From Treponema sp. Marseille-Q4130 (GTDB lineage: Bacteria > Spirochaetota > Spirochaetia > Treponematales > Treponemataceae), in NCBI RefSeq assembly GCF_014334325.1, contig NZ_JACSET010000005.1:146448-210447 (forward strand): a DNA stretch of 64,000 bases. The letters are read 5' to 3'. The notes under the pieces were generated by a model. The model did no database searches and had not been told where the DNA came from. It worked only from the letters and a program-made list of their open reading frames with translations. The number at the start of each line of letters is the position of its first letter. The first letter of the stretch is position 1. A program made the translations under genes and the position numbers. Shown in pieces: positions 31,503 through 64,000 of this stretch.

Positions 31503-32349
31503 TTGAAGAACACTCCTTTTGCGTACCTTTGCGCATCGCTACCCCCGCATACAGCGCGTGGATGACGGCGATTTCCGCCATCCGTTCGTATATCGAATCT
31601 CCGGAAAACATACGGGCGCGGCTCGTTGCAACGAGACGGTAATCGGCGAGCTTCGACAGCGAAGATTGTCCGATATCGCTTATACCGATGATGACGGCCC
31701 CCTTTTGTTTGGCGATTTTAACGGATTCTACGACATCCCGTGTTTCACCGGAACGAGAGATGGCTATGACCGCATCTCCCGCATCGAAATGCGCCGGCTG
31801 CATGTATTCGAAATTAAAAGACGCGGTGTAGTTGACGCGGATGCCGATTTTGCGAAAATTGTGCAGGGCGCTCCGCGCAGCCGCAGCCGCTCCGCCAATA
31901 CCGAAAATTTCCACATACGACGCACGCGCGAGAGCGTCGACTGCTTTTTCAAACTCGGCGTCATCGAGCAGAGCGAGCGTATCGCCGAGTGCTTCCATAC
32001 AGCCGGAAAAAACTTTGCACTTAATATCGTGCATCGTATCGCGCGGCCGCAGCGCAAAATCGTCAGGAATTCTGCCTCTGTCCAAAACCCTTTCTTCGGA
32101 AATCGCGATTTTGAAATCTTTTAAGCCCGCATAGCCGATATGATGAAAAAAACGGACGACCGTCGCTTCACTGACGCCGTTATTCTGCGCAAGCTCGCGG
32201 ACGCTGCCGCTTAAAACGGATTCGGGAGCGTTTAAAACATAATCCGCTATACGGTTTTCCAACGCGCTGAGTTTATTCAAAGAGCTACGGACTTGTACTT
32301 CCCAAAGCGGGATCGCTGCGATATTGACCTTTTCCACGTGCTGCGGCAT
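31495..32349 (-). CDS. RpiR/MurR-family transcriptional regulator
   Basis: About 284 residues when started at the ATG at 32349 (MPQHVEKV); the codon at 32376 lies upstream of the predicted transcription start. An N-terminal winged helix-turn-helix (residues 20-80: LSALENRIADYVLNAPESVLSGSVRELAQNNGVSEATVVRFFHHIGY) is followed by a SIS domain (residues 115-240) with EIFGIGGAAAAARSALHNFRKIG and AISRSGETRDVVESV. SIS domains sense phosphosugars, so this regulator probably responds to an intermediate of the island. The promoter is TTGACA (32386-32381), a 17-base spacer and TACGAT (32363-32358); the ATG is eight bases beyond it. Confidence 0.88.
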   Translation of the reverse strand: MPQHVEKVNIAAIPLWEVQVRSSLNKLSALENRIADYVLNAPESVLSGSVRELAQNNGVSEATVVRFFHHIGYAGLKDFKIAISEERVLDRGRIPDDFALRPRDTMHDIKCKVFSGCMEALGDTLALLDDAEFEKAVDALARASYVEIFGIGGAAAAARSALHNFRKIGIRVNYTASFNFEYMQPAHFDAGDAVIAISRSGETRDVVESVKIAKQKGAVIIGISDIGQSSLSKLADYRLVATSRARMFSGDSIYERMAEIAVIHALYAGVAMRKGTQKECSSNE

Positions 32350-51089: not shown

Positions 51090-52006
51090 ACGGAGGATTG
51101 TTTTCGCTGCAGACGGATGAAGATTTCAATAAGGCGCACAGCAAAGCGCTCTTCAACGAAATACAGCATTTTTTAAATCCCGAAGAAGCATCCCTCATTT
51201 CGTTTGCCGAAATCAAATCGATTTTAAAACCGAAAGACGAAATCTACGTCGGTTTAAAAACGATCCCTATCGACAAAATCGTCGGAAGCGAAGGCCGCTA
51301 TAAAGATTTCGATAACCGCTTTTTTCCGAAAAGCGGATTTTTGCGCGAACGGTGGAAGCACGTCGATGCGGCGCAATACGAATCGATCGTCCTGCCGCCG
51401 ATAAAAGCGTACGAGCTCGGAGGACTTTATTTTGTGCGCGACGGCAATCACCGCGTTTCGGTTGCAAAAGCGCGCGGCATCGAATTCATCGACGCGGAGA
51501 TCGTTTCACTGCAGAGCGAAATAAAATTAAAGCCCGCCTATACGCTGAAATCGATGATAAAAGAGATTATCTCCTACGAAAAGCGGGTGTTCTACACCGA
51601 AACGAATTTCGGAGACATCACCGATTTTTGGTCGCTCGATTTTACGTCAACCGGACAGTACGACATCATCTACAATCACATACTGACCCACAAAGCGTAC
51701 ATCGAAAAAAAACAAAGCTCCGACATGACGATGACCGATGCGATCATGTCGTGGTTCGAAGACGTCTATCTTCCGATAATCAAAGCGATAGACGATCGGC
51801 GCGTCATGCGTTATTTCAAGCAGCACACGAAGAGCGACCTTTACGTGTGGATCATGCGGTATTGGGAAGAGCTGCGGAAAAAATTCGGAGAGGACGTACA
51901 GCTCGACGAAGCGGTGCAGTCCTTTACGCGAAGCAAAAGGATAGGTTTTACCGCCCGCATAAAAAACGGCATCGAGCGTATCATGTTCAAACGGAAAATA
52001 AAATAA
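51086..52006 (+). CDS. ParB-like nuclease-domain protein
   Basis: A 306-residue protein. Residues about 55-155 are a ParB/sulfiredoxin-type domain: GLKTIPIDKIVGSEGRYKDFDNRFFPKSGFLRERWKHVDAAQYESIVLPPIKAYELGGLYFVRDGNHRVSVAKARGIEFIDAEIV. The DGNHRVSVA loop matches the ParB GxHRxxA motif. No helix-turn-helix follows, so this is not a chromosome-partition ParB. The remaining 150 residues are helical and not recognised. ParB-type domains bind or hydrolyse nucleotides such as CTP. Its start overlaps the phosphoesterase stop, so translation is coupled. The longer upstream reading from 50903 is a frame shadow. Confidence 0.75.
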   Translation: MNGGLFSLQTDEDFNKAHSKALFNEIQHFLNPEEASLISFAEIKSILKPKDEIYVGLKTIPIDKIVGSEGRYKDFDNRFFPKSGFLRERWKHVDAAQYESIVLPPIKAYELGGLYFVRDGNHRVSVAKARGIEFIDAEIVSLQSEIKLKPAYTLKSMIKEIISYEKRVFYTETNFGDITDFWSLDFTSTGQYDIIYNHILTHKAYIEKKQSSDMTMTDAIMSWFEDVYLPIIKAIDDRRVMRYFKQHTKSDLYVWIMRYWEELRKKFGEDVQLDEAVQSFTRSKRIGFTARIKNGIERIMFKRKIK

Positions 52007-52134
52007 ATACAACAAAATCGTACGAAAATATCACGTGTCCGCGATAAAATAAAAAATAAAATCGTCACCTTGACTGCTTACCGCTTCAATGGTACAATCT
52101 TCAGTTATATCGTATCAGTATGCGGAGTTAAAAA

Positions 52135-53775
52135 TTGTATTTGATTGATTCTTTTGTACATATACCGATTATCGCGGCGGAGGTATTGCTCGCAGTCCTC
52201 TTCGTGTTGCTCGCCGTCATACGGTATCGCAATACGGCGAAAGCGAGTTTCGTGCTTTACATCGCGCTCGGCATCCTTTTTGCAGGTCTTATCTATACGC
52301 TCCGCTTTTCACGCAGCGTATATCTCGTTATCGCCATGCTCGCTGCGGAATTGCTCGTACTGCCCTATTTCATCATCCTCTCATTCGGCTTTCCCCGAAA
52401 GCGAGAAAAAAAAGAAAAGCCGGAGACGCACGTCGAAGCCGAACGCGATTCGCTTGCAACCATATCGTACGAAAAAAAATTCGACGCGAATGAAGATTTT
52501 GCGACAAAGGCGGCAGAGCTTTTTTCGCTCGACAACAGCTTAAGTCAATTTCTCGACTATTTCAATGCGAAGCTCACTGAAGCTACAAAGGCCGACGGCT
52601 GCGTTATCCTCCTGTCGGACGAGTTCGACAACTTTCTCACCGTCCGATCCATGACCGGATCCTTTCCTTCGCCCTACCGGCTGCCCGATACGCTGCCGCA
52701 TAAACCCGTGCGGGTCGAAGCGAATTTCCGCTACATGCAGTTTCAGCTTTCCGACACGATTTTCGGCGAAACCGCTTCTTCCGGCGAAGCCGTACTTATA
52801 AAAGACGCCTCTCGCGATCCGCGTATTTATCAAAACGGTCCGGAAGATTTCCTCGCGTGCGGCTCCTACATCTGCGTTCCGATCCGCATACAGGGCAGGA
52901 CGGTCGGCGTTTCGGCTCTGTCGCGGGCTCCGAAAAAAGAAGGCTTTTCCGAAATCGATTTCGAACGCGCAAAGACGCTCACCGATGCGGCCGCTTCCGC
53001 ACTCCGCTCGCTTTTGAGCTTTCTCGACTACAGCGAAAAACGAAGCCTCACGGAAGAAGGCAATACGGCGGCAAAATTCCAAAAAAAGCTCATCCCCGAA
53101 AAGATACCCGAAATGCTCGGCGTATCGCTCGGAGTATGGTCGGTGCAAAACGAAAACGTATGCGGGGACTATTACGATATTGTGCCGGTGAAAAAAGACC
53201 GTACACTGTTCGTTATGGCAGATGTCGTCGGAAAAGGCATGAATTCGTTCAGCGTCATGGTGATGATCCGCACGATGTTGCGTATGATAGCCGCGACTCC
53301 GCAAAGCCCCGCTGCTATTCTAAAATGGATCAACCGCGGACTCTGCGCCGAAACCGCCATCGAAGATCACTTTGCGAGCATCGCCCTCATCGATTACAAT
53401 CCTTTAACGCGGAAAACGCAGCTTTCAACGAGCGGCATCAATCCGGTACTCGTCTATAAGGCAAAAACGGATGAGGTCTCCCAGCTGTCTAAACAGAATG
53501 AACCGCTCGGAGTCGAAAAAACGTCGGTATTCGAAGATATAACCGTACAGCTCCAAAGCGGAGACATTCTCGTAAGCTGTACGGACGGCTTACTTGAATC
53601 TCTGAGCGAATCCGGTGTACAATATTCGGCAGCGCGCCTCATGCAAGTTATAAAAACGAATCATGAACTGTCAGGTGCTGACATTGCCGAACGGGTAAAA
53701 GCGGATGTACAACTTCATTCGGGTACCGCCCAACAATATGACGATCAAAGCCTTTTGATTATAAAAATTCGGTAA
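52135..53775 (+). CDS. RsbU-like PP2C phosphatase with membrane and GAF domains
   Basis: A 546-residue protein starting at TTG 52135, with GGAG nine bases before it. Three hydrophobic helices in residues 8-85 anchor it. A GAF domain follows (residues about 125-300: FLDYFNAKLTEATKADGCVILLSDEFDN, DASRDPRIYQNGPEDFLACGSYICVPIRIQGRTVGVSAL). The C-terminal SpoIIE-type PP2C domain has VQNENVCGDYYDIVPVKKDRTLFVMADVVGKGMNSFSVMVMIRTMLR and ITVQLQSGDILVSCTDGLLESLSESG, with the metal-binding Asp residues. It dephosphorylates the STAS protein encoded next, as in RsbU/RsbV/RsbW partner switching. GAF domains sense small molecules, so this is probably the signal input. Confidence 0.87.
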   Translation: MYLIDSFVHIPIIAAEVLLAVLFVLLAVIRYRNTAKASFVLYIALGILFAGLIYTLRFSRSVYLVIAMLAAELLVLPYFIILSFGFPRKREKKEKPETHVEAERDSLATISYEKKFDANEDFATKAAELFSLDNSLSQFLDYFNAKLTEATKADGCVILLSDEFDNFLTVRSMTGSFPSPYRLPDTLPHKPVRVEANFRYMQFQLSDTIFGETASSGEAVLIKDASRDPRIYQNGPEDFLACGSYICVPIRIQGRTVGVSALSRAPKKEGFSEIDFERAKTLTDAAASALRSLLSFLDYSEKRSLTEEGNTAAKFQKKLIPEKIPEMLGVSLGVWSVQNENVCGDYYDIVPVKKDRTLFVMADVVGKGMNSFSVMVMIRTMLRMIAATPQSPAAILKWINRGLCAETAIEDHFASIALIDYNPLTRKTQLSTSGINPVLVYKAKTDEVSQLSKQNEPLGVEKTSVFEDITVQLQSGDILVSCTDGLLESLSESGVQYSAARLMQVIKTNHELSGADIAERVKADVQLHSGTAQQYDDQSLLIIKIR

Positions 53776-53792
53776 AACAGGAAGGGATATCT

Positions 53793-54131
53793 ATGGAACT
53801 GAAAATCCGGAAAAACGGCGACATCTACATCATCGATGTAAACGGAGAGATGGATCTGTATAATTCATACAAGCTCAAAGAGCTCGTCATGAAGATGCTG
53901 GAAAAAAACGTCAAATTCTTTGTCATCAATTTGGAACAGGTCGATTATATCGATTCGTCGGGGATCGGTGCGCTCATCTATATCTGTTCGACGATCAAAA
54001 AGATGAACCTCCACCTTTCCATTGCAAATATCCACGGTTCGGTAAAAAAAGTCATCGAATTGACAAAACTGACGGGGTATTTTCCGATCGCAAACAGCAT
54101 TGAAGAAGCGCTCGAGATGGTCAAAGAATAG
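53793..54131 (+). CDS. Anti-sigma factor antagonist (STAS domain, RsbV type)
   Basis: A 112-residue STAS protein. It has the family start MELKIRKNGDIYIIDVNGEMDLYNSYKLKELVMKMLEKNVKFFVINLEQVDYIDSSGIGALIYICSTIKKMN. The phosphorylated serine is in VDYIDSSGIGAL (residues about 49-60). Phosphorylated by the kinase encoded 124 bases downstream and dephosphorylated by the phosphatase upstream, it releases a partner sigma factor or output protein. Its start is 17 bases after the phosphatase gene, after a GAAGGGA site. No sigma factor gene follows in this window. Confidence 0.9.
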   Translation: MELKIRKNGDIYIIDVNGEMDLYNSYKLKELVMKMLEKNVKFFVINLEQVDYIDSSGIGALIYICSTIKKMNLHLSIANIHGSVKKVIELTKLTGYFPIANSIEEALEMVKE

Positions 54132-54254
54132 CGTATTTTGTACTTGCAAAGCGATACGGAAAAATCGATTTTGAACATAGCGCTTTAGCGTGGAAAATAT
54201 GCCTCATACGCTCAAATTTTTTATACGCCCGTTTATACCAAAGGAGTTTGCCCT

Positions 54255-54803
54255 ATGGCACGCGAAGAAGAAATAAAAGAACTTCACTCGGACGACAATG
54301 ACCCCCTGTTCAATACGGAAAATATGCTTGTAAAAACCTTTCCGTCCGATTTCAGACAGATAAGATATTTTACGCTTCTGATCGTCCAGTCGGCGCCGAC
54401 GGAAATCAGAGAGCTGAACCTGCTCGAACAGCAGATAAGCGAAGTGATCAAAAACGCAGTCAAACACGGCAATCACTGCGACATGAATAAAAAAGTGACG
54501 GTCTGGTATTCGTTCAGTCCCAGTCACGCCCACCTCATCGTACAGGATGAAGGCGAGGGTTTTAAAAACCTTGAAAAATGGAACGAATTCAATCGCAAGA
54601 GAATCGAATGCCTGCACACGCAGAATTTTGAAGACCTCGCAAACTACGTTTCGTTCCGAACGGCATCGAGCGACGAGCACGACGGCGGAAACGCCCTCTT
54701 TGCGGCGGTCGAATATTGGAACGGCGGCTTTGTCTTCAACGGTAAACGCAACGCCGTCGCAATGCTGAAAAAGTTTAAGCAAAAACATCACGCCATTCAC
54801 TGA
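54255..54803 (+). CDS. RsbW-type anti-sigma serine kinase (HATPase domain)
   Basis: A 182-residue protein with AAAGGAG before the ATG. The GHKL ATP-binding domain covers residues about 35-150: LLEQQISEVIKNAVKHGNHCDMNKKVTVWYSFSPSHAHLIVQDEGEGFKNLEKWNE, with the N-box NAVKHG and the G1 box DEGEGF. It is longer than typical 150-residue RsbW because of extra residues at both ends. It would phosphorylate the STAS protein and bind the output partner. No sigma gene is adjacent, so the final target lies elsewhere. The gene is separated from tmRNA by a promoter region. Confidence 0.87.
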   Translation: MAREEEIKELHSDDNDPLFNTENMLVKTFPSDFRQIRYFTLLIVQSAPTEIRELNLLEQQISEVIKNAVKHGNHCDMNKKVTVWYSFSPSHAHLIVQDEGEGFKNLEKWNEFNRKRIECLHTQNFEDLANYVSFRTASSDEHDGGNALFAAVEYWNGGFVFNGKRNAVAMLKKFKQKHHAIH

Positions 54804-54867
54804 CGCGAACCAACGACACGCAGATACGGGAAGCCGCCCGAAAGGCCGATATTTTTTGCAAAAGAAC

Positions 54868-54896
54868 TTGACAAAAGCCTGCAGCGTGAGTATCTT
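54868..54896 (+). promoter_or_regulatory. Promoter of the tmRNA gene
   Basis: TTGACA at 54868-54873, a 17-base spacer and TATCTT at 54891-54896 form a strong sigma70-type promoter. Its start lies about 12 bases before the mature 5' end of tmRNA at 54916, leaving room for 5' processing. Confidence 0.8.
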
Positions 54897-54915
54897 TAAA
54901 AGGATTCCGCTAATC

Positions 54916-55292
54916 GGGGGTGCACCGGTTTCGACGGATACGGGAAAGCTTGTACTGCAGGTAAGGCCGCGTTTCCTTTGAAAACGCAAAAAAACATAAC
55001 TGCCAAACGTGAAGAAGACTTCGTGTCTGAAGACGAACAGTTAGCTCTTGCTGCGTAAGTGGCGACTTAAAGAGCCGGAAACCCGTCCGCACCGCTCCGA
55101 GCTGTCGGGATTTCCGTCGTAAACCGGAGCTTGCTGTGCGCACTGTCCGATATGCGCGCAGGACATCTATCGGAATACGGAGCGGACACCTGCTGTGCCG
55201 TTAAACGCTCCCGACAATCACCCCGCACAGCTACGCCTGTAGATGTACCTGTTTTACGTACCCGGACGGGGGTTCAATTCCCCCCACTTCCA
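54916..55292 (+). ncRNA. ssrA: Transfer-messenger RNA (tmRNA), SsrA
   Basis: A 377-base tmRNA. The 5' acceptor strand GGGGGTG (54916-54922) pairs with CACTTCC (55285-55291) with two G-T pairs; the T stem is GGGGG-TTCAATT-CCCCC (55268-55284) and the discriminator A is at 55292. CCA is not encoded; TTTTT follows. The tag begins at GCC 55002 and ends at TAA 55056-55058, giving AKREEDFVSEDEQLALAA, 18 residues with the usual LAA end and unusually acidic. It rescues stalled ribosomes with SmpB (19282). The prophage integrase gene starts 56 bases beyond the 3' end, marking this as the insertion site. Confidence 0.95.
55268..55292 (+). other. Probable attL of the prophage in the tmRNA 3' end
   Basis: The T-arm and 3' acceptor strand of tmRNA lie directly before an integrase gene on the same strand. 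Many phages integrate in the 3' end of ssrA and restore it. The matching attR is outside the window, so the core cannot be defined. Confidence 0.6.
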
Positions 55293-55348
55293 TTTTTCAG
55301 GGAATTATCGGTTCTGTAATTCTTTGTGGTATAAGAAATTACAGAGCC

Positions 55349-56548
55349 GTGAAAAATATAACAAAGCCCGTGTATACAGAATGTATACAAAACGTCCGCA
55401 AAAAAACGATGGGACGATATAGGGAACACTTTACTCTTTATGCCCGCCGGCGAAAAAACGGCGCAAAGGTTTGGTATTATAAAACCTACTCGCCCGATGG
55501 AGTACGCACGTGCGGAAAATCAACCGGCTTGGAAAGCAAGGCGAAAGCCCGCGCGTACTGCGAAGAATTATTCAAAAAAGGTAAACTCTGGGGCGGTTCG
55601 TGCAAGCTGTTTGGCGATTTTGCCGAAGGCTTTTTCGACGAAACGAGCGCATGGTTCCGCGATCGAATGTCTTGCGGAACGGAAGACTGCCCTGCGCTCT
55701 CACAATCGTATATAAAAACAATTCGGATGCACCTAAAGGCGTATATCCTGCCGTTTTTCCGCGATTGCAAAATGGAAGACTTGCGACCGTCGTTGACGAA
55801 ATTATTCCGCGTCGAATTACTCGAAAAAGGATTTCGGACAGAAAAAGGCGCTATTCGCCCGCTCGCCCCGAAAACAGTAAACAATGTCATATCGACATTC
55901 AAACTGATTACGGATGCCGCGCTCGCCGACGGCATAATAATGTTCGATCCGCTTCGGACGATAAAACCGCTCAAAGGTAACGAACGCCCGCGCGATATGT
56001 ACGATATGGCGGAGTTGAAAAAAATCGTTACAACGGTAAAAGACACCCGTTTATACGTCCCTGTACTTATGGCGATCTGCACGGGAATGAGAGCATCCGA
56101 AGTGCTTGCCGTCCGTGCTGAAACACTGCATGAAAATTATATCGATGTCATCGATCAAGTATACAACGGGCAATATGTACCGTTAAAAACAAAAGAAGCA
56201 CGTAAAATACCGATATGCGTCGAATTACACGATTTGATAATTAATAATTTTCCGAACATGACATACCCACAATTGAGCTGCGAGTTTCGAAAGGTGATTT
56301 CATCGGCAGGGCTTGAGGACGAAAAAAAGAAACGCGGTTTATGTTTCCATTCGTTCCGTCATACATTTAATACCTACCTGCTCGCCGAGAATGTTCCGCC
56401 GCATAAAGTCGCGGCGGTTATGGGACACTCGTCGGGTGCGGGAAGTATGCAAGAGCGCTATACCAACTGGCGCGCGGAGATGATGCCAGAAGTGTATGCG
56501 GCGCAGGAGAAATTATTAAGGGATATTATGACGGAAAATAATTATTAA
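55349..56548 (+). CDS. Tyrosine-type phage integrase
   Basis: A 399-residue protein (GTG start at 55349; an ATG at 55409 giving 379 residues and the start MGRYREHFTLYARRRKNG is equally plausible). The C-terminal catalytic domain has the R-HxxR-H-Y set in GMRASEVLAV, HSFRHTFNTYL, AVMGHSSGAGS and ERYTNW, and the core-binding domain lies upstream (PALSQSYIKTIRMHLKAYILPFFRDCK). An N-terminal arm-type DNA-binding region precedes it. It catalyses insertion into and excision from the tmRNA 3' end. It is oriented away from ssrA, as usual. Confidence 0.92.
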   Translation: MKNITKPVYTECIQNVRKKTMGRYREHFTLYARRRKNGAKVWYYKTYSPDGVRTCGKSTGLESKAKARAYCEELFKKGKLWGGSCKLFGDFAEGFFDETSAWFRDRMSCGTEDCPALSQSYIKTIRMHLKAYILPFFRDCKMEDLRPSLTKLFRVELLEKGFRTEKGAIRPLAPKTVNNVISTFKLITDAALADGIIMFDPLRTIKPLKGNERPRDMYDMAELKKIVTTVKDTRLYVPVLMAICTGMRASEVLAVRAETLHENYIDVIDQVYNGQYVPLKTKEARKIPICVELHDLIINNFPNMTYPQLSCEFRKVISSAGLEDEKKKRGLCFHSFRHTFNTYLLAENVPPHKVAAVMGHSSGAGSMQERYTNWRAEMMPEVYAAQEKLLRDIMTENNY

Positions 56549-56550
56549 TT

Positions 56551-57150
56551 TTATTTTAGCTTTCGTTTTATCATATATTTATGTAGTCTTATCCAAGTAA
56601 CACCTAATTTTCGTGCAATTTCTGATTTACTCTTACCCGCGAGACGTGCACGGCGTATTTGTCCGCCTTTACCTGTTAATTTATAATGGCTTGACGCTTG
56701 CCCTTTTCTTCTGCCAATATGCTTGCCTGCTTTTCGTGCACGTTCCAGCCCTTGTTTAGTCCGCTCTGAAATCAATATCCTTTCTATTTCCGCCGATAGA
56801 CCAAATGCAAAAGCTAAAACTTTCGACTGGATATTATCGCCGAGTTCATATCCCTCTTTTATTGCAATAACTTTTACCCCGCGATCCAAAAGATATTGTA
56901 AAACATCTAAAATCATCATAAGGCTTCGTCCTAGACGTGATAACTCCGTACAAATTATGGTGTCATTTTTCTGTACTGTCGATAACAAAGTGCCTAACTT
57001 TCTTTTTGCCGGCTTTTTTATGCCGCTGATTGTTTCTGATACCCATTGCACATTGCATAATCTATGCGTTTGACAATAAGAGCGTATCGCTAGCTTTTGA
57101 TTTTCACATACCTGCTTACCTGTACTTACCCTAATATAACCGTATACCAT
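56551..57150 (-). CDS. Serine recombinase / DNA invertase
   Basis: A 199-residue resolvase/invertase. The catalytic domain begins MVYGYIRVSTGKQVCENQKLAIRSYC with the catalytic serine (Ser9), has TELSRLGRSLMMILDVLQYLLDRGVKVIAIKEGYELG with the conserved arginines, and the long E-helix (SAEIERILISERTKQGLERARKAGKHIGRRKG). A C-terminal helix-turn-helix (residues about 160-195) reads the site. The invertible segment starts 65 bases upstream of its start codon, at 57216. Length and build fit DNA invertases such as Gin, Hin and Mpi. The gene is AT-rich, like the phage genes. Confidence 0.9.
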   Translation of the reverse strand: MVYGYIRVSTGKQVCENQKLAIRSYCQTHRLCNVQWVSETISGIKKPAKRKLGTLLSTVQKNDTIICTELSRLGRSLMMILDVLQYLLDRGVKVIAIKEGYELGDNIQSKVLAFAFGLSAEIERILISERTKQGLERARKAGKHIGRRKGQASSHYKLTGKGGQIRRARLAGKSKSEIARKLGVTWIRLHKYMIKRKLK

Positions 57151-57215
57151 ATACGCCTCCGCGTAATTATTTCATGCAATAAGATTAAACAATAATTTGT
57201 TTTATGCGGTTTAAT

Positions 57216-57240
57216 AAAAAACGGACGAATTAATTAAACA
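57216..57240 (+). repeat. Left inverted repeat of the invertible segment
   Basis: This 25-base sequence starts AAAAAACGGACG and ends AATTAAACA. It is the exact reverse complement of 57749-57773. In the correct frame it encodes KTDELIKQ, so crossing-over here keeps the reading frame of the tail fibre. It is the probable recombination site of the adjacent invertase. Confidence 0.85.
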
Positions 57241-57466
57241 AGGTCAAGCGACGGCAGTAAATGGATTAAAGGTTCTTGTAGCTGGAGAACATGCTCATGC
57301 AATAGGATCCAGTGATAGTGGCTCTGGAGCATTTCCAAGAGGCTATTATTCCACACAACATTCTGTTTTATCAGGATATGCAGGAAATCATTATCATTCA
57401 TTGTCCGGAGATACTGAAACAAGACCCACTAACTATACTGTCAATCTCTGGCTTCGTACCGCCTAA
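57218..57466 (+). pseudogene. Silent alternative C-terminus of the tail fibre
   Basis: An 82-codon open frame without start codon, in phase from within the left repeat. It reads KTDELIKQGQATAVNGLKVLV, AGEHAHAIGSSDSGSGAFPR, GYYSTQHSVLSGYAGNHYHS and LSGDTETRPTNYTVNLWLRT, then A and a stop at 57464-57466. The end resembles the expressed fibre end (NETRPTNFTHQLWLRIA) while the rest differs, and HAHAIGS/HYHS are tail-collar-like. The stop codon overlaps the expressed gene's stop on the other strand. It becomes the expressed C-terminus when the segment flips. Confidence 0.88.
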
Positions 57467-58812
57467 GCAATACGCAACCATAGTTGATGTGTAAAGTTAG
57501 TAGGTCGGGTTTCATTATCATTGCTTCCCAAATAAATGTTGTCCTGGGCGGTCTTTAATGGTATTCGATCGCCGTAAGACACTTTGTTTTCTTGAGAAGC
57601 ATCAAGACGATTTGTGTCCTTCGAAGAACCACCCCAACTTGAATGGGCTAAATCCACTTTATGATTATGTCCAGCAGTGGTGTTTGCCATACCTGTACCA
57701 TCATACCTACTATTGAGCCACAAACCGTTCTTAGCAGTTGCGTCTTTCTGTTTAATTAATTCGTCCGTTTTTTCTATAAACGCCGCCGCGTTACCTCCCG
57801 TCGCGCGGAAGAACGCTCCTGCATACTGCTCTTGCAACGCCCATTTTGTGCAGACGAATAAATCTTGCGGCGCTTCCTGTTGCGGATATTGTACATACAC
57901 CTCTCCGATGCGCGGACACGATAACCCTTCCCATTTATTCCCGTTCCAAATGACTGTCTGTATCTGTCCCGCCTGTAAGGTTGAATCTCCGTCGCGCGCT
58001 GTAGTGCCACGTATAGTATGTATCTTGCCAGTTGTATTAATAATTTTTACTTCGATACCTGCATACGATCCATCGCCGATTGTTAATATTATTTGCTCGG
58101 GTGCTGTAATTGCAATCGTCTTATCAAAATCTATTCTGCCGATGTTCTGTGATACAGATATAGATAAACGTTTTTCGGTTTCAATTTGTTGCTTATTTGC
58201 ATTCCATATAACAGCCGCCCCATTCTCCATTTCTGCATCTTCCGAGCGTAATACAATCGGACGCGTACCATTATTATTTCCAGCTCTCGCTGTTCCGTTT
58301 TTATCAAATCCAATGATATAATCTTTTTCTCCGTCACATTTATTTGCTTTCAGCCCCGAAATCTCGTTATTGTTTAATATACCAGACACACCGTCGCGAA
58401 CGCTGACAATATTATTTTTTATATGTACGTTTGAAAATTGTGCTTTACCGTTTCCCTTTTGTATAATATTTCCGGCAACCGTCAATTTTTGTAAATCAAC
58501 GACACCGTTTACAATAGTATCGACAGCTTTTTTAATGATATTTTTTATCGCAGCAATAACTTGACCTTTGCTTCCGTCAGCTTCTTTTCCGTCTTCACTG
58601 ATTACCGCGTTGAGTTCATCCTCTACTACTGCCAAGCCAGTATTTAAGTCGGTGATACACTTCGAATTTTTATGCCACGCCCAATTCAGCCATTCGGCAG
58701 GCAGTACATCTGCCTGTTTAAATCCCGATGCGTATTTTACAGCGTCAGGCGTGGCTTTGACGGCATTTTCTCCGAATATTGCATATTTATCAAAAGTCTG
58801 TGTTTCAATCAT
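57463..58812 (-). CDS. Phage tail fibre, expressed form
   Basis: A 449-residue tail fibre. The N-terminal part (MIETQTFDKYAIFGENAVKATPDAVKYASGFKQADVLPAEWLNWAWHKNSKCI) is the baseplate-attaching part, the middle is a long fibrous beta-rich region (residues 130-320), and the C-terminal 90 residues after EKTDELIKQ are switchable: AGHNHKVDLAHSSWGG and NETRPTNFTHQLWLRIA. The phrase EKTDELIKQ near residue 352 is the site of the right inverted repeat. Its end is tail-to-tail with the silent version. It probably recognises a cell-surface receptor. The next gene upstream is six bases away. Confidence 0.9.
   Translation of the reverse strand: MIETQTFDKYAIFGENAVKATPDAVKYASGFKQADVLPAEWLNWAWHKNSKCITDLNTGLAVVEDELNAVISEDGKEADGSKGQVIAAIKNIIKKAVDTIVNGVVDLQKLTVAGNIIQKGNGKAQFSNVHIKNNIVSVRDGVSGILNNNEISGLKANKCDGEKDYIIGFDKNGTARAGNNNGTRPIVLRSEDAEMENGAAVIWNANKQQIETEKRLSISVSQNIGRIDFDKTIAITAPEQIILTIGDGSYAGIEVKIINTTGKIHTIRGTTARDGDSTLQAGQIQTVIWNGNKWEGLSCPRIGEVYVQYPQQEAPQDLFVCTKWALQEQYAGAFFRATGGNAAAFIEKTDELIKQKDATAKNGLWLNSRYDGTGMANTTAGHNHKVDLAHSSWGGSSKDTNRLDASQENKVSYGDRIPLKTAQDNIYLGSNDNETRPTNFTHQLWLRIA
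57749..57773 (-). repeat. Right inverted repeat of the invertible segment, inside the fibre gene
   Basis: Perfect 25-base inverse match to 57216-57240, within codons EKTDELIKQ of the fibre gene. Together they bound a 558-base segment. The bases outside the repeats differ, so the matching ends are well defined. Confidence 0.85.
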
Positions 58813-58818
58813 TTTTTA

Positions 58819-59400
58819 TTAACCTCCTGATGTTATTAAAACTTGCGGCGATGTAGTCGTACGATAAAATATTTGTGTCAATATCCAAATATTTTTATAG
58901 CCGATATCTTTATTAAAATGCACATTAATATCTTTGTTTGTATCAAATTTTATTACATAGTCTTTCGAAATAACCGATACAATCTTATCAACACTCGCAA
59001 GCGTTATACCGAAACGTTTTAATACGGCAATCGATTTTAAAAATTTTCGATACATTCCTAAATCCATAAATCCGGTATCGGTATACGATATAGTCGATAA
59101 CTGTCCACCGAGATTATCACCGACAGTCGATAATCCAATACTTAGATCGGTCTCGAGTGGCAACCCGCCAAGTAATAAAATATTTTCCGCATTAAATCCC
59201 TCCGGCACTAGAGGACGAATATATCCGATAATGCGTCCGATATTCTCAAGTTCTTTTTCGTCGGCAGTATCGATCGACAACTTATAAATATAATTCTGTA
59301 TAAACTCCGCTTCGGCAAATTCGCTATTGATTGCCGCCCCGAAAGCGCTGATAACAGATCCGTTTATTTGTGCAGGATAGTATCGATTTACCGGTATCAT
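58819..59400 (-). CDS. Phage tail protein (DUF2612 / tail protein I-like)
   Basis: A 193-residue protein. Residues 1-80 (MIPVNRYYPAQINGSVISAFGAAINSEFAEAEFIQNYIYKLSIDTADEKELENIGRIIGYIRP) match the helix-rich start of baseplate proteins related to tail protein I and DUF2612, including LENIGRIIGYIRP. The rest (residues 95-190) is beta-rich. It lies between baseplate J and the fibre, so it probably links fibre to baseplate. It directly follows the J gene (59401) with no gap. Confidence 0.75.
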   Translation of the reverse strand: MIPVNRYYPAQINGSVISAFGAAINSEFAEAEFIQNYIYKLSIDTADEKELENIGRIIGYIRPLVPEGFNAENILLLGGLPLETDLSIGLSTVGDNLGGQLSTISYTDTGFMDLGMYRKFLKSIAVLKRFGITLASVDKIVSVISKDYVIKFDTNKDINVHFNKDIGYKNIWILTQIFYRTTTSPQVLITSGG

Positions 59401-60891
59401 TTACACCCCTACCTGCTCGATTGTAATTGTTGCGTCCGATATGCGTGGGATAGTATTACAATCGACTTCGACAACGCTCTCCCATTTTTTACCGTCGATA
59501 CTTACTTGCGTATATGCGACTTCTGTGTATGTACAATGCACAAACGGCGCACTCGTCAAAAGCTGTGTAACGCTATCACCGATTCTCCAGTTTGCACTCG
59601 CAGTGATGAGATCGCGTTTGATTTGATTTCTGATATGCGTACCGTTATCCGCGTCTTCGGTGAGCCATACTTTTACAAAAACTTGTTTTTCACCGGCAAG
59701 ATCGTAATATATCGGTATAGACTGCCCGCTCGCCGTCGTCCAGTTTTGGACTTTCGCAGGATTATCCATACCGGGTATCGACGGCTCTCTGTTTATTACC
59801 GATATGACATTATCAATCGTTTCGACGAGTTCATTGATTCCCGCCTGCGGGACTTGTACCGCCCCGACTTCGATACAAGTAAATGTTATTTTCTTTTCCG
59901 TACCGGCGGTGATCGTTACCTGTTCCGACGATTTAAACGTATGACCTTTATAGACAACTGTCGTACCGCTCGGTATTACCGCGTTTCCTGTACTTGCCGC
60001 ACCGATCGTAATACCTACGGTTGAGTACGTACCTTTTGCGATCGGAGAATTTTGTGTCGGAGCACTCATATACCCCGCGTAGGTCTCGGCTATTTTGTCG
60101 GAGTTACCGTGTATGACGATATACGCAGTTCTCGGTTGCAATACTACACCGCCTGTCAGCGTAATCGCGGTTTTTGTATTGTAATTAAAAAATATTCGCG
60201 CATACGATACGCCAGTTAAACTCTCGAGCGCGCCTTTACATCCGTCGAGCGAGTATTTTATCGTATCGCCCAATACAAGCCGCCGACGCAGCGCGTTTGT
60301 CGTTTCTGCCTCTATGCCTGGAATACTCGATTCGAGGTTTTCCACACTCTCTAAATTAATAATCTGTCTGTCAAACGATTTGATCTCTCCCGAGAGTACG
60401 GCAACGGCTCCGATTGTATCGCAAACGGTATCGATGATTTGCGTACTTCCAGCACTGATAACAGCCTTTTCCTTTACGATAAAATTGACATCCTCATAAG
60501 GCGCTTTTGTACCGGCAGGGATAATACAGTCACCGGACGAGCTCGCCTGTACCGTAAGACGCAGTGTCGAGTAACTGCCGGGATTTCGTGCGACAGCGGC
60601 AATCGGCAAAAGATTTTCAATCTGCGCATCATCGCAGATTTCAATATTGAGCGAGTTTATCGCACGCGACAATTTTTCATCATTGTCGGCAAAACGGTTT
60701 CCATCTCCGAGTGCAAGCAGATAGAGCGCGTTGTCATAGCTTTTTTTCAGCTGTACGATTTTACCGTCCTTATCTTTAATACCGTTTTGCTGTAAAAGCG
60801 TGTTGACGCTATCGATTATTTTATCGGCATGCTCGACCGTTGTTTTCGGTCGCCATGTTTCGCCGTTTATTTTAAAGCTCACGTGCCGCAT
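59401..60891 (-). CDS. Baseplate protein J-like
   Basis: A 496-residue protein with a J-type start (ADKIIDSVNTLLQQNGIKDKDGKIVQLKKSYDNALYLLALGDG). Two related beta-rich modules repeat the pattern: PAGTKAPYEDVNFIVKEKAVISAGSTQIIDTVCDTIGAVAVLSGEIKSFD and PSGTTVVYKGHTFKSSEQVTITAGTEKKITFTCIEVGAVQVPQAGINEL. The phrases ETTNALRRRLVLG and GCKGALESLTGVSYA are those of Mu gp47/J-like proteins. It forms the wedge ring of the contractile baseplate. Its stop lies immediately before the next gene and its start overlaps the W-like gene by 20 bases. Confidence 0.85.
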   Translation of the reverse strand: MRHVSFKINGETWRPKTTVEHADKIIDSVNTLLQQNGIKDKDGKIVQLKKSYDNALYLLALGDGNRFADNDEKLSRAINSLNIEICDDAQIENLLPIAAVARNPGSYSTLRLTVQASSSGDCIIPAGTKAPYEDVNFIVKEKAVISAGSTQIIDTVCDTIGAVAVLSGEIKSFDRQIINLESVENLESSIPGIEAETTNALRRRLVLGDTIKYSLDGCKGALESLTGVSYARIFFNYNTKTAITLTGGVVLQPRTAYIVIHGNSDKIAETYAGYMSAPTQNSPIAKGTYSTVGITIGAASTGNAVIPSGTTVVYKGHTFKSSEQVTITAGTEKKITFTCIEVGAVQVPQAGINELVETIDNVISVINREPSIPGMDNPAKVQNWTTASGQSIPIYYDLAGEKQVFVKVWLTEDADNGTHIRNQIKRDLITASANWRIGDSVTQLLTSAPFVHCTYTEVAYTQVSIDGKKWESVVEVDCNTIPRISDATITIEQVGV

Positions 60892-61222
60892 CCTCCACTT
60901 TTAATTTCCCTACACTCATAGTCAGTTTGCCGTTTTCAATATTGTACTTCGGATAAAATGTTTCTTTTTCCGTAAGTCGTAAACTTTCCCGTACATAAAA
61001 ATCGAGCTCACCGAAAGTCAGCTTTTGCGTCAAAAAATCCGTCCACGGCACGCCTACATCGGGAAGCTGCGGAACAGTTCCGCGAATTAAAAAACCTGCC
61101 TGCGTTGCCGCCTGTAATTCTTCCTCATCTCCCGATACGATCGGAACAATACCGTCGATGACTTTACAATCCCATGTTATCCCGCTTGTCGTAATATCTT
61201 CAGCACGCATTTTTAAATCCAT
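60872..61222 (-). CDS. Baseplate wedge W/gp25-like protein
   Basis: A 116-residue protein. The size and position immediately before J, and the segment LTQKLTFGELDFYVRESLRLTEKETFYPKYNIENGKLTMSVGKLKVEDAAREL, fit a small baseplate wedge protein (gp25/W family). The family's EPR motif is not clear, so the assignment relies on place and length. It starts one base after the spike-type gene's end (61224) and overlaps the next gene by 20 bases. Confidence 0.6.
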   Translation of the reverse strand: MDLKMRAEDITTSGITWDCKVIDGIVPIVSGDEEELQAATQAGFLIRGTVPQLPDVGVPWTDFLTQKLTFGELDFYVRESLRLTEKETFYPKYNIENGKLTMSVGKLKVEDAAREL

Positions 61223-61223
61223 T

Positions 61224-61913
61224 TTATCCCCCCGTTACGACTGTCGTTGTCTTTGCCGCACCTATATTTATAGTCATCGGAGTAACCGGTGGAGATGATG
61301 GACTGCTGGGTGCGGCACAGGTATGTGTATGAGTATTTAAAAGCACAATAAGATTATTAAGAGCCGTATTGAGTTCCGCCCACGTTACAAGCTGTTTACT
61401 GTTCCCGTTGAGCTCTATTTTTTGCTTTGCCTTTATTTTATGATTGTTGCATTCAAACTCTATATCATCTTCCGCCGTAACGGATAATTTTCCTTTTTTG
61501 ATTTCCGCTTTTACTTTTGCCTTGTTGTTAAAAACGCACATCGGGAGAGCCTTGAGTGTTTCCCTGCTGTAGTGCAAATACGACTTTGTTTCTTCGGGTG
61601 ATGTTATATCCCCCGTCTTTGCTACAGGTGTTTTCAGTCCGAGTAGCAACACCTTATCGCCTTTTTGTATATCCCACGTAAGCGAAAAACCGGTACCCGA
61701 TAGCGTCAGCACTTCGATGTTTTTCGTTTCCATTTCCGGCAATGTCTCTCCGTTCATCATTTTTTGCTGTTTTGCGTGCAGTACGTTTATCGTTTTATCC
61801 GCATTTATCGCTTTGATAATTCCGTAATCAACGATAAAAAAATTCCCAAGTATCGCCTCGATTAAATCGCGATCGGTAAAGCGTGTTACTGCATTCAAAA
61901 AATTATTATTCAT
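61224..61913 (-). CDS. Baseplate spike/puncturing protein (Gp138/gpV-like)
   Basis: A 229-residue protein. An N-terminal OB-fold region (residues about 20-120: AILGNFFIVDYGIIKAINADKTINVLHAKQQKMMNGETLPEMETKNIEVLTLSGTGFSLTWDIQKGDKVLLLGLKTPV) is followed by KLSVTAEDDIEFECNNHKIKAKQKIELNGNSKQLVTWAELNTALNNLIVLLNTHTHTCAAPSSPSSPPVTP. The HTHTC motif with repeated histidines would bind a metal at the spike tip. This arrangement is that of Gp138-N/gpV spike proteins. Its ATG overlaps the next upstream gene's stop by four bases. Confidence 0.72.
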   Translation of the reverse strand: MNNNFLNAVTRFTDRDLIEAILGNFFIVDYGIIKAINADKTINVLHAKQQKMMNGETLPEMETKNIEVLTLSGTGFSLTWDIQKGDKVLLLGLKTPVAKTGDITSPEETKSYLHYSRETLKALPMCVFNNKAKVKAEIKKGKLSVTAEDDIEFECNNHKIKAKQKIELNGNSKQLVTWAELNTALNNLIVLLNTHTHTCAAPSSPSSPPVTPMTINIGAAKTTTVVTGG

Positions 61914-62791
61914 GCCGACCTCTTATCCGCTGCTATGCCTTCGATTGTCATTTGATTTGCGCTCCCGACTGTCGCAAAATGAAATTGCAGTGAGGTGATC
62001 TCAATACGAGATCGTTCCTGTCGAAAATTTTTAAGATATTCCGTCGATTGGTAATACGCCGAATTAAACGTTACAATATCGCCGGGCTTTAATATCGGGT
62101 TCCACGGCGCGCTGATTGTTGCCGAGGCAAGCATACTCTCCGATCCCGCCTTGATAATAGGCGGCGCGGAAAGATAAGGAAGATCGATTTCAGCGCCAGG
62201 CGATGTTCCGGCTTCTTTGTATGCTACAAATGTACCGCTATCGATCGTAATATGCACACCGTCAAAACTTCTCTCAAGGTGCGCGATTGCATCTTTACAC
62301 GCGCCCTGAAACTGGAACGATTCTTCCGATACCTCTTGTATCGCAGAACTTACTACGGGAGTTTTTAATCCGAGCGGCTTTGATATTTGCGCAAGTGCCG
62401 TTTGCAGGGTATATCCTTTGTCGAGGTTTATATCGACCGTTTTTGTCATCCACTCTACAAATTGCCCGAACATACAGTGTACAACCGTCGTACTCTCCGG
62501 ACCAGGCGATTCTTGGTGCATGTACGCGATTGTCGATTCGAGCATAATACGCCGTTTATCCTCATAGCCTGCATATACACGGAGCTTTTTTGCACTTGAT
62601 AAAATACTGTCGATATAAAAGTTTTTTACGGTTATATCAAAATCATTCGGGATATCCCGCCCGTACATTGCGCCCGTAAGTGTGATATTCGGTTTTCGCC
62701 CATGTGTCGGGCATTTTATTTGCGCAACGATCGCATCGTTATCATTGAGGAAATACAAATCAATAATTTTATTAAAGTTTGCTATTCCCAT
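61910..62791 (-). CDS. Baseplate hub protein (gp44/late-control D-like)
   Basis: A 293-residue protein. Position and size match a baseplate hub such as Mu gp44 or P2 gpD, upstream of the spike. It begins MGIANFNKIIDLYFLNDNDAIVAQIKC and shows TLQTALAQISKPLGLKTPV, DAIAHLERSFDGVHITIDSGTFVAYK and ISAPWNPILKPGDIVTFNSAYYQSTEYLKNFRQERSRIEITSLQFHFATVG. The linear order of beta domains is plausible for a hub. I recognise no strict motif, so this is a positional call. It overlaps the baseplate plug-like gene by ten bases. Confidence 0.6.
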   Translation of the reverse strand: MGIANFNKIIDLYFLNDNDAIVAQIKCPTHGRKPNITLTGAMYGRDIPNDFDITVKNFYIDSILSSAKKLRVYAGYEDKRRIMLESTIAYMHQESPGPESTTVVHCMFGQFVEWMTKTVDINLDKGYTLQTALAQISKPLGLKTPVVSSAIQEVSEESFQFQGACKDAIAHLERSFDGVHITIDSGTFVAYKEAGTSPGAEIDLPYLSAPPIIKAGSESMLASATISAPWNPILKPGDIVTFNSAYYQSTEYLKNFRQERSRIEITSLQFHFATVGSANQMTIEGIAADKRSA

Positions 62792-63087
62792 TTTATTAAA
62801 TAAAGCTCCGTCAAAAAAAGTGCGTTATATCCGATTTCGGGAAGCTGTGTTTTAAAAATAAATCCGTAATCGCTGTTTCCCGTTCCCGATACGACATTCG
62901 GATATACCCCAGCCTTACGCATTATCCCGTTCGGCAGTGTTATCCAGCAGTTCCACCGACCATTAAAAAATCGAAAAGCAAATGTAAAATTACCTGCTTC
63001 CGTAATACAATCGAATGAAAAATTCTCTTGCATCTCTGTTGCAGGAAATGGAATACGCTCAAGTGATTTAATCGCTCTCATATACAT
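62782..63087 (-). CDS. Small baseplate plug-like protein
   Basis: A 101-residue protein, or two residues fewer if the second ATG (63081) is used. It is beta-rich: RAIKSLERIPFPATEMQENFSFDCITEAGNFTFAFRFFNGRWNCWITLPNGIMRKAGVYPNVVSGTGNSDYGFIFKTQLPEIGYNALFLTELYLIKWE. The phrase FxFxFRFFNGRWxCWITLP is like the plug protein family seen at the top of compact contractile baseplates. It is the first gene of the leftward baseplate run. Only the size, place and this phrase support the call. Confidence 0.6.
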   Translation of the reverse strand: MYMRAIKSLERIPFPATEMQENFSFDCITEAGNFTFAFRFFNGRWNCWITLPNGIMRKAGVYPNVVSGTGNSDYGFIFKTQLPEIGYNALFLTELYLIKWE

Positions 63088-63168
63088 ATAGTCATTTTTA
63101 CTTTATGATAACTTATTTATTTTAGTTTTATTTCCGATACTTATAAAAAGCAATCTAAGGAGTAACTT

Positions 63169-63348
63169 ATGAGTACAGACGTCGAAATTAAATGTAAAGC
63201 TATTGAGGTAGTCTTAAAACTAGTAGAATTGCACGAATTACGTTTTCAGCACGGTAACGATTATACCGTAGAACAAGTAACCGAGCAATTTTTAAAAGCT
63301 GTAGATTTAATCGCGGCAAAAATTAAAGAGCCTCAAGACAAAAAATAA
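63169..63348 (+). CDS. Small phage protein, 59 residues, unknown function
   Basis: ATG at 63169 with AAGGAG at 63157-63162. The product runs from MSTDVEIKCKAIEVVLKLVE to LIAAKIKEPQDKK. It is charged and helical, with no hydrophobic region. It is divergent from the baseplate plug-like gene. The strong ribosome-binding site and good codon structure support a real gene, and its function is unknown. Confidence 0.7.
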   Translation: MSTDVEIKCKAIEVVLKLVELHELRFQHGNDYTVEQVTEQFLKAVDLIAAKIKEPQDKK

Positions 63349-63388
63349 TTATCCTTTACATTTACAGGGCATTATGCCCTGTACTTTT

Positions 63389-63535
63389 CTAATAGGTTAA
63401 TACCATAATTTTCAATTCACCTGCACTCCTTTTAAACGTATAATCCCACATTCTTGCGCCATACTTTTCACAAACAGTCCGTATCTCTTCAAGCAATTTT
63501 ACAGCATCTACTTTCTTTTCTTTTTCTTCTGCCAT
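63389..63535 (-). CDS. Small phage protein, 48 residues, unknown function
   Basis: Reads MAEEKEKKVDAVKLLEEIRT and ends GELKIMVLTY when started at 63535. The longer reading from 63589 adds residues with a basic start and no better site. The N-terminal half is a charged helix. No domain is recognised. Confidence 0.5.
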   Translation of the reverse strand: MAEEKEKKVDAVKLLEEIRTVCEKYGARMWDYTFKRSAGELKIMVLTY

Positions 63536-63624
63536 AATTATATCTCCAAATAATAATTTTAAACAAAAACGGCGATCGTACGGGTGCAAGTGCGCACGAC
63601 CGCCGACGCAACGTTGCCGCTGCG

Positions 63625-63975
63625 TTAATTTTTACCGTTCGCGGTTTCCGATTTTTTATCAAATAAAATACCGAAAATTACCGTAAGAGCCGCGAGTATC
63701 GCGCCCGAAACCGTTTTAAAAATATTTTGCGACAATCCGCCGATACAACACAAAACCCCGCCAATTACCGCAAGTACGATAATGACAACCGTTTTCCATG
63801 AAAAATTGTTTTTTTCTTTCGCGGTCTCTACCATAGATATGACAACCGCAGCAAGCCCGAATGCGGCAAGTGCGATTTCAATTACGGTTACGCTCGGGAT
63901 TTTGACAAATTGCGCGGTTACAACAGCCGCAGCAAAAAGCAACATCCCAATAAATCCAATAATTTTATACTTCAT
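63625..63975 (-). CDS. Small membrane protein with four helices (possible holin)
   Basis: A 116-residue protein with four hydrophobic segments: 5-25, 30-50, 62-80 and 88-105. Charged linkers (KEKNNFSWK) lie between the pairs. It is AT-rich and close to small phage genes, which fits a holin or other lysis-related membrane protein, but no lysis enzyme is adjacent within the window. Its start is near the window end. Confidence 0.5.
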   Translation of the reverse strand: MKYKIIGFIGMLLFAAAVVTAQFVKIPSVTVIEIALAAFGLAAVVISMVETAKEKNNFSWKTVVIIVLAVIGGVLCCIGGLSQNIFKTVSGAILAALTVIFGILFDKKSETANGKN

Positions 63976-64000
63976 GTTTTACCTCCACATATATAGTCAT

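Follow-up and report, generated by a model that had tools for sequence, protein, structure and literature searches.

The fibre gene and its two alternative ends

We begin by considering the end of a tail-fibre gene in a stretch of 64,000 nucleotides from Treponema sp. Marseille-Q4130 (the whole stretch is called the window here), where a short segment between inverted repeats carries two alternative C-termini and adjoins the gene of a serine DNA invertase. The fibre gene (57463..58812, minus strand, 449 amino acids) lies after baseplate genes and matches phrog_34297 over residues 71-366 (E 6.8e-113), a family whose function is not named in PHROG. Two perfect 25-bp inverted repeats, the left crossover repeat at 57216..57240 (plus strand) and the right one at 57749..57773 (minus strand, within the fibre gene), enclose 508 bp and form a segment of 558 bp overall; the portion of the gene from 57463 to 57748 is its variable tip. 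The outer end of the left repeat is 65 bp from the start codon of the invertase gene. Similarity between the two arms reaches 35 bp at 89% (57206-57240 / 57749-57783), and the 25-bp pair is the longest exact inverted repeat of the whole window. A repeat arising by chance was dropped as an explanation, since 30 first-order resamples of the 12 kb from 52001 to 64000 gave no inverted repeat longer than 15 bp.

Facing the expressed end is a silent alternative C-terminus of 82 amino acids (57218..57466, plus strand). The expressed tip, called tip A, ends with NETRPTNFTHQLWLRIA and the silent one, tip B, with TETRPTNYTVNLWLRTA; the two have their first residues and an ETRPTN...LWLR tail in common. 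On the phrog_34297 profile the fibre body covers positions 84-386 and the silent tip 459-484, the C-terminal end of the profile (E 1e-8), and the silent tip matches phrog_33418 as well (E 2.2e-4). The silent frame is directly preceded by a stop codon (57215-57217), and its single ATG, GTG or TTG codon is a TTG at 57401, late in the frame. In both frames the repeat is translated as KTDELIKQ, in the same phase, so that inversion preserves the reading frame, and their stop codons (57463-57465 on the minus strand, 57464-57466 on the plus strand) share 2 bp.

Much of this anatomy had been described in an earlier note on this DNA. Its two perfect repeats, the right one within the fibre gene, are borne out by the coordinates and the resamples, and its frame-keeping KTDELIKQ by translation of both frames; the overlap of the opposed stop codons and the recombinase gene 65 bases from the left repeat are confirmed, and the term "startless" for the silent frame holds in substance.

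The locus therefore has what is looked for in a tail-fibre inversion switch: inverted sites around alternative C-termini with one site within the fibre gene, a reading frame that is kept, and an intact, linked invertase. We put at about 88% the probability that it is a two-state switch of the tail-fibre tip of a temperate phage, operated by serine-recombinase inversion. The proposal of an inversion switch of a prophage tail-fibre C-terminus is well supported by the anatomy and by the relatives described below; the inversion itself we infer rather than see, because no flipped copy of the window locus was found.

The invertase

The invertase gene (56551..57150, minus strand) is an intact frame whose product of 199 amino acids matches PF00239 (E 8.3e-33), the DNA invertase family phrog_125 and, in the PDB, the DNA-invertases 4m6f and 3uj3. 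Residues R7, S9, R72, R75 and E129, which we take to be its catalytic residues, are present and align with R7, S9, R65, R68 and E121 of Gin. Its best NCBIfam model, and its best curated family, is the Mpi master invertase of Bacteroides fragilis (NF009949, E 2.6e-71), at a score of 239.5 bits that is under the curated cut-off of 272. The enzymes of Bacteroides pyogenes (given as 182 amino acids; 257.3) and T. socranskii (257.2) also miss this cut-off, and Gin and Cin do not match the model at 1e-20.

The earlier note had cited invertases of the Gin, Cin and Hin type as the established precedent; the recombinase here is not of the Gin/Cin lineage. Identity to that lineage is 27-29%, and in a tree of 33 rows Gin, Cin and Pin are separate from the other 30 rows with 100/100 support, so that a Gin-type enzyme was rejected. 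In this tree, from which Hin was left out, 12 of the 30 inner branches are open, the place of the window enzyme itself is not fixed, and a long-branch warning applies to rows that include Pin. By these comparisons the recombinase is Mpi-like, rather than of the Gin/Cin kind. Across 200 genomes of the genus, the source genome among them, 119 have a relative of the enzyme at E <= 0.001; the source genome itself has a single match at this threshold.

Relatives with the same anatomy

Matches to the fibre were found in 10 of the 200 genomes, and none in the viral contigs or the phage records searched. Three further viral scans, made with invertases of relatives, yielded no contigs beyond those already found. 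A profile of the C-terminal half of the fibre (A1 and one longer relative) gave no match among PDB sequences at E <= 1. In comparison with its relatives, the gene is conserved as far as the crossover and divergent beyond.

The survey covered 24 loci (the window among them, one per element) whose invertase has an identity of 59.6% or more; it excluded L019, L052 and L053, for which upstream DNA is lacking, and duplicate entries for a contig. At 16 of the 24 loci, window included, an inverted partner (at most 4 mismatches in 22) exists for an arm that precedes the invertase by about 20-105 bp; a control in which the arm was reversed without being complemented gave 0 of 24. By sequence, the arms of 15 loci form two groups and some outliers. 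Of the 15 relatives that have a repeat partner, eight had their frames read (L043, L044, L013, L016, L020, L047, L014 and L050), and opposed alternative C-termini are present in every one of them.

T. socranskii ATCC 35536 (L043), with an invertase 74% identical to that of the window, has the fibre, the opposed tip and the invertase in the same order, and its two arms differ at 4 of 22 positions (18/22 match). From residue 235 its fibre is identical to ours at 95 of 108 positions up to the crossover and at 31 of 89 beyond. In T. bryantii B25 (L044), the roughly 3.4 kb upstream of an Mpi-like invertase contain 12 sites (at most 4 substitutions), six in each orientation and grouped in threes. 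Its listed cassette frames start with NGLKIQW or NGLKMQW and end with IGY or IGF. By its sequence, this looks like a shufflon-like tail-fibre array. The locus L020 has four cassettes with the ending RPKN.T..IW.R.

Two observations on single loci may be added. In L016 the expressed cassette (-1630..-1384) and the one proximal to the invertase (-48..-294) are inverted copies of each other, 98% identical over 247 bp. The invertase of L046, a locus titled Ruminococcus sp. RGIG4546, pairs in the tree with that of the Treponema locus L051 (98/89), and kilobases of flanking DNA align at 73-78%; the contig is perhaps mis-binned.

The order of the tips among relatives

The next question is "does a reversed order of the tips exist among related prophages?", a search that the earlier note had proposed. 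It was answered in part, by the cassette of a viral contig and by the tails of T. socranskii, and no flipped copy of the window locus came with them. In T. bryantii the cassette adjoining the invertase (-335..-49 in L044) is silent. The counterpart of this cassette in L013, a viral contig from a metagenome (86.5% identity over 289 bp), stands in the opposite orientation, joined to the fibre and flanked by sites on both sides.

The silent tail of the window matches the expressed tail of T. socranskii at 48 of 60 nucleotides, against 38 of 60 for the expressed tail of the window, which suggests from the sequences that the tips stand in the reverse order there. Among the 20 codons on which this comparison rests, the changes are 8 synonymous (one of them TAA/TAG) and 2 non-synonymous, with 9 of the 12 differences at third positions. 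Such mostly synonymous change suggests that the silent frame is under selection as a protein, and is thus sometimes expressed.

Results against a working switch, and alternative explanations

Several results weigh against the reading of the locus as a working inversion switch. Apart from the missing flipped copy, the tips of the window and T. socranskii show no detectable likeness once their last 22 residues are removed (z -0.3 to 1.5 in four cross pairs); the reversed order is thus drawn from the tails, and an exchange of tails by recombination would also fit. A degenerate pattern of the site had 0 matches in the viral contigs, collections that may omit records close to the source genome. At the DNA level, among 59 genomes including the source genome, the only matches were in the source genome itself and over 49 bp at the start of the invertase in genome G004. 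Comparing 132 invertase loci all against all, we obtained 17 opposed matches between loci, none with the window locus and one near-identical (L095/L097). Eight of the 24 surveyed loci have no recognisable repeat partner (L045, L018, L120, L055, L054, L121, L122 and L118), with just 1.5 kb of upstream DNA each for L120, L121, L122 and L118. Neither a shared dyad, nor a crossover dinucleotide, nor the place of the cut could be assigned from the arms of the 15 loci. The last two points in this group are a second copy of the tip pair that has the same orientation as the window and a copy in another genome that has a single site.

The second copy is in the same genome. We call the source genome G000, its contig with the window C14, and two of its other contigs C2 and C15; at up to 3 mismatches the genome has four matches to the site, in two pairs. 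A second prophage has this tip pair at G000:C2:2801-3483 (L040), oriented as in the window, with arms that each differ from the window site at 2 of 23 positions. No invertase is present in the DNA examined of the C2 prophage. Since the genome has a single invertase match, an inversion at C2 would need an enzyme acting in trans, unless one of its own is missing from the assembly. The copy with one site is in genome G063 (L142:2484-2894), where L142:2742-2894 is what is left, truncated, of an opposed tip and no match to the invertase was found; on this sequence evidence G063 is a locked end state. The fibre of G063, from residue 235, is identical to ours at 97 of 121 positions before the crossover and at 13 of 59 after it. 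The gene that comes after this locus resembles an adenine methylase, a resemblance noted without a family search.

The like orientation of both copies in one genome, and the existence of a locked derivative in G063, would be expected if the window locus were itself a relic that flipped once, no longer inverts and carries a decaying silent tip. Against this stand the perfect repeats, an intact invertase in which the catalytic residues are present, and a silent frame without interruption, whose last 20 codons differ from T. socranskii mainly by synonymous changes. The comparison with C2 is neutral here: the silent frame is open there too, and of the changed codons 2 are synonymous and 3 non-synonymous. 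We regard such a relic as unlikely.

The C2 copy bears on a further explanation, in which the fibre 3' end was duplicated in inverted orientation and is maintained by homologous recombination or gene conversion, while the recombinase serves something else. Recombination does appear to carry cassette pairs from one prophage to another, as C14 and C2 are 97.8% identical within the repeats and 80% identical in the 360-bp fibre flank (ungapped), with a different N-terminus of the stem, and a duplication would account for the first residues and the tail that the tips share. The repeats, however, are perfect over 25 bp and then diverge in about 10 bp, 16 of the 24 loci have an arm a short way in front of the related invertase, and T. 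bryantii has 12 sites in equal numbers of both orientations. This makes the duplication the least probable of the alternatives that we weigh, and very improbable in absolute terms.

Returning to the inversion switch, a broader picture can be drawn from the same loci, although we hold it as a tentative and somewhat doubtful one. One Mpi-like invertase would serve two prophages of one cell, with the C2 tip pair as a module exchanged between prophages and inverted in trans, and Treponema phages would have a tip-switch lineage of their own that runs from locked (G063) through two-state to 12-site (T. bryantii) forms.

The all-against-all comparison also brought up two pairs of more distant loci with different targets, whose invertases are 45-50% identical to that of the window and in which a flip is clearer. 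In the alphaproteobacterial loci L095 and L097, both from metagenome-assembled genomes (MAGs), 107 bp at +604..+710 from the invertase start are inverted at 100% identity. This segment lies just upstream of a gene that we read, without a family search, as DNA-methylase-like, and it looks like an invertible promoter. The Bacteroidota MAGs L087 (-940..-48) and L096 (-922..-47) have two opposed C-termini in reversed order, 907 bp inverted at 75%, with Mpi-like invertases adjoining; we take these C-termini, again without a family search, for specificity domains of DNA methylases.

The prophage

We turn our attention to the surroundings of the switch. Upstream of the fibre gene, all on the minus strand, are a probable tail or baseplate protein (58819..59400), with weak matches to phrog_587 (structural protein, E 3.6e-5) and DUF2612 (E 0.012), a baseplate J-like protein (59401..60891; Baseplate_J, PF04865, E 2.7e-16; phrog_6, baseplate wedge) and a baseplate hub (61910..62791; phrog_196, E 4.3e-13). 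On the other side, on the plus strand, lie the tyrosine integrase of the prophage (55349..56548; PF00589, phrog_1) and a tmRNA gene (54916..55292) that is the likely attachment site. Close to its end, at 55271-55286, the tmRNA gene contains the 16 bases GGTTCAATTCCCCCCA, which are found again at G000:C15:31621. In the part of the window that belongs to the prophage, the G+C content is down to about 42%, from about 50%, and contig C14 ends 2,240 bp past the window.

The first 20 kb of C15, before the repeat at 31621, have matches to terminase, portal, protease, major head and Mom-like proteins and weak ones to the tape measure, in a profile scan of 10 proteins of which 8 were from this region; the protein at C15:3018-4142 had no family match in the scan. 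If the two contigs adjoin, one prophage of about 42.6 kb would be spread over C14 and C15. The Mom-like DNA modification gene (G000:C15:16364-17167, L190; phrog_1384, E 3.3e-49) would lie in the same prophage.

These data bear on whether the fibre could belong to a phage-tail-like bacteriocin, with a switch that alters the killing range and not the infection range. Among 8 window proteins of C14 and one more (L041) that were scanned there are tail and baseplate matches and no clear head gene, as such a particle would have it. The repeated tmRNA end on C15, with the terminase, portal, protease and head genes in the 31 kb that precede it, speaks for a phage instead, to the extent that the joining of C14 and C15 is correct. 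We think a bacteriocin improbable, and more so than a locked relic.

Proposed mechanism and comparison with known systems

In the mechanism that we propose, the invertase would bind both 25-bp sites, the left one a short way upstream of the invertase gene and the other within the fibre gene, and strand exchange of the serine-recombinase type would invert the 508 bp between them. The constant stem of the fibre would be joined to tip A in one orientation and to tip B in the other, and both products would be full-length because both sites code for KTDELIKQ in the same phase. A lysogen could then release phage with two adsorption specificities. By analogy with Mu and P1, a flip would alter receptor binding or host range; that the window copy itself flips we likewise infer, as we do any rate and control of the flipping.

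The G segment of Mu with Gin and the C segment of P1 with Cin have the same layout as found here, with inverted sites (one in the fibre gene, one beside the invertase gene), opposed C-termini and a small serine invertase. Even the spacing is close: 66 bases separate the boundary of the G segment (35025) from the start of gin (35092) in Mu. The Mu and P1 segments also carry the tail-fibre assembly genes U and U', according to their record annotations, whereas the segment in the window holds the tips only, and the window enzyme is on a separate branch from Gin and Cin. Unlike in the Mpi system, the site in the window lies within a phage structural gene and adjoins the enzyme.

In the Rin shufflon of bifidobacterial prophages, the C-terminus of a receptor-binding protein is switched among several cassettes, according to the part of the source consulted (PMC6109161). 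The window differs from it in using a serine recombinase, with 2 sites here and 12 in the T. bryantii relative. PinQ, the invertase of one E. coli prophage, flips a fibre segment (the P segment of e14) of another, as given in an excerpt of its report (PMC12529663), and a PinQ-like action in trans may take place on the C2 prophage. For the phylum, putative inversions are recorded in 1 of 8 Spirochaetes species in the portion seen of a survey (PMC5903667). Among the matches listed in the open-access literature we found no report of a tail-fibre inversion system in Treponema, which is no proof of novelty.

The principle of the switch is thus known from Mu G, P1 C and Rin, and what is different here is the lineage of the enzyme, the compact segment of tips only, the host phylum and the multi-site relatives. 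The finding would extend tail-fibre inversion to the phages of spirochaetes, with an enzyme lineage that is known from surface variation in Bacteroides. The C2 tip pair offers a case of possible action in trans between prophages that is open to testing. The graded relatives, locked, two-state and multi-site, provide material for studying the step from a switch to a shufflon.
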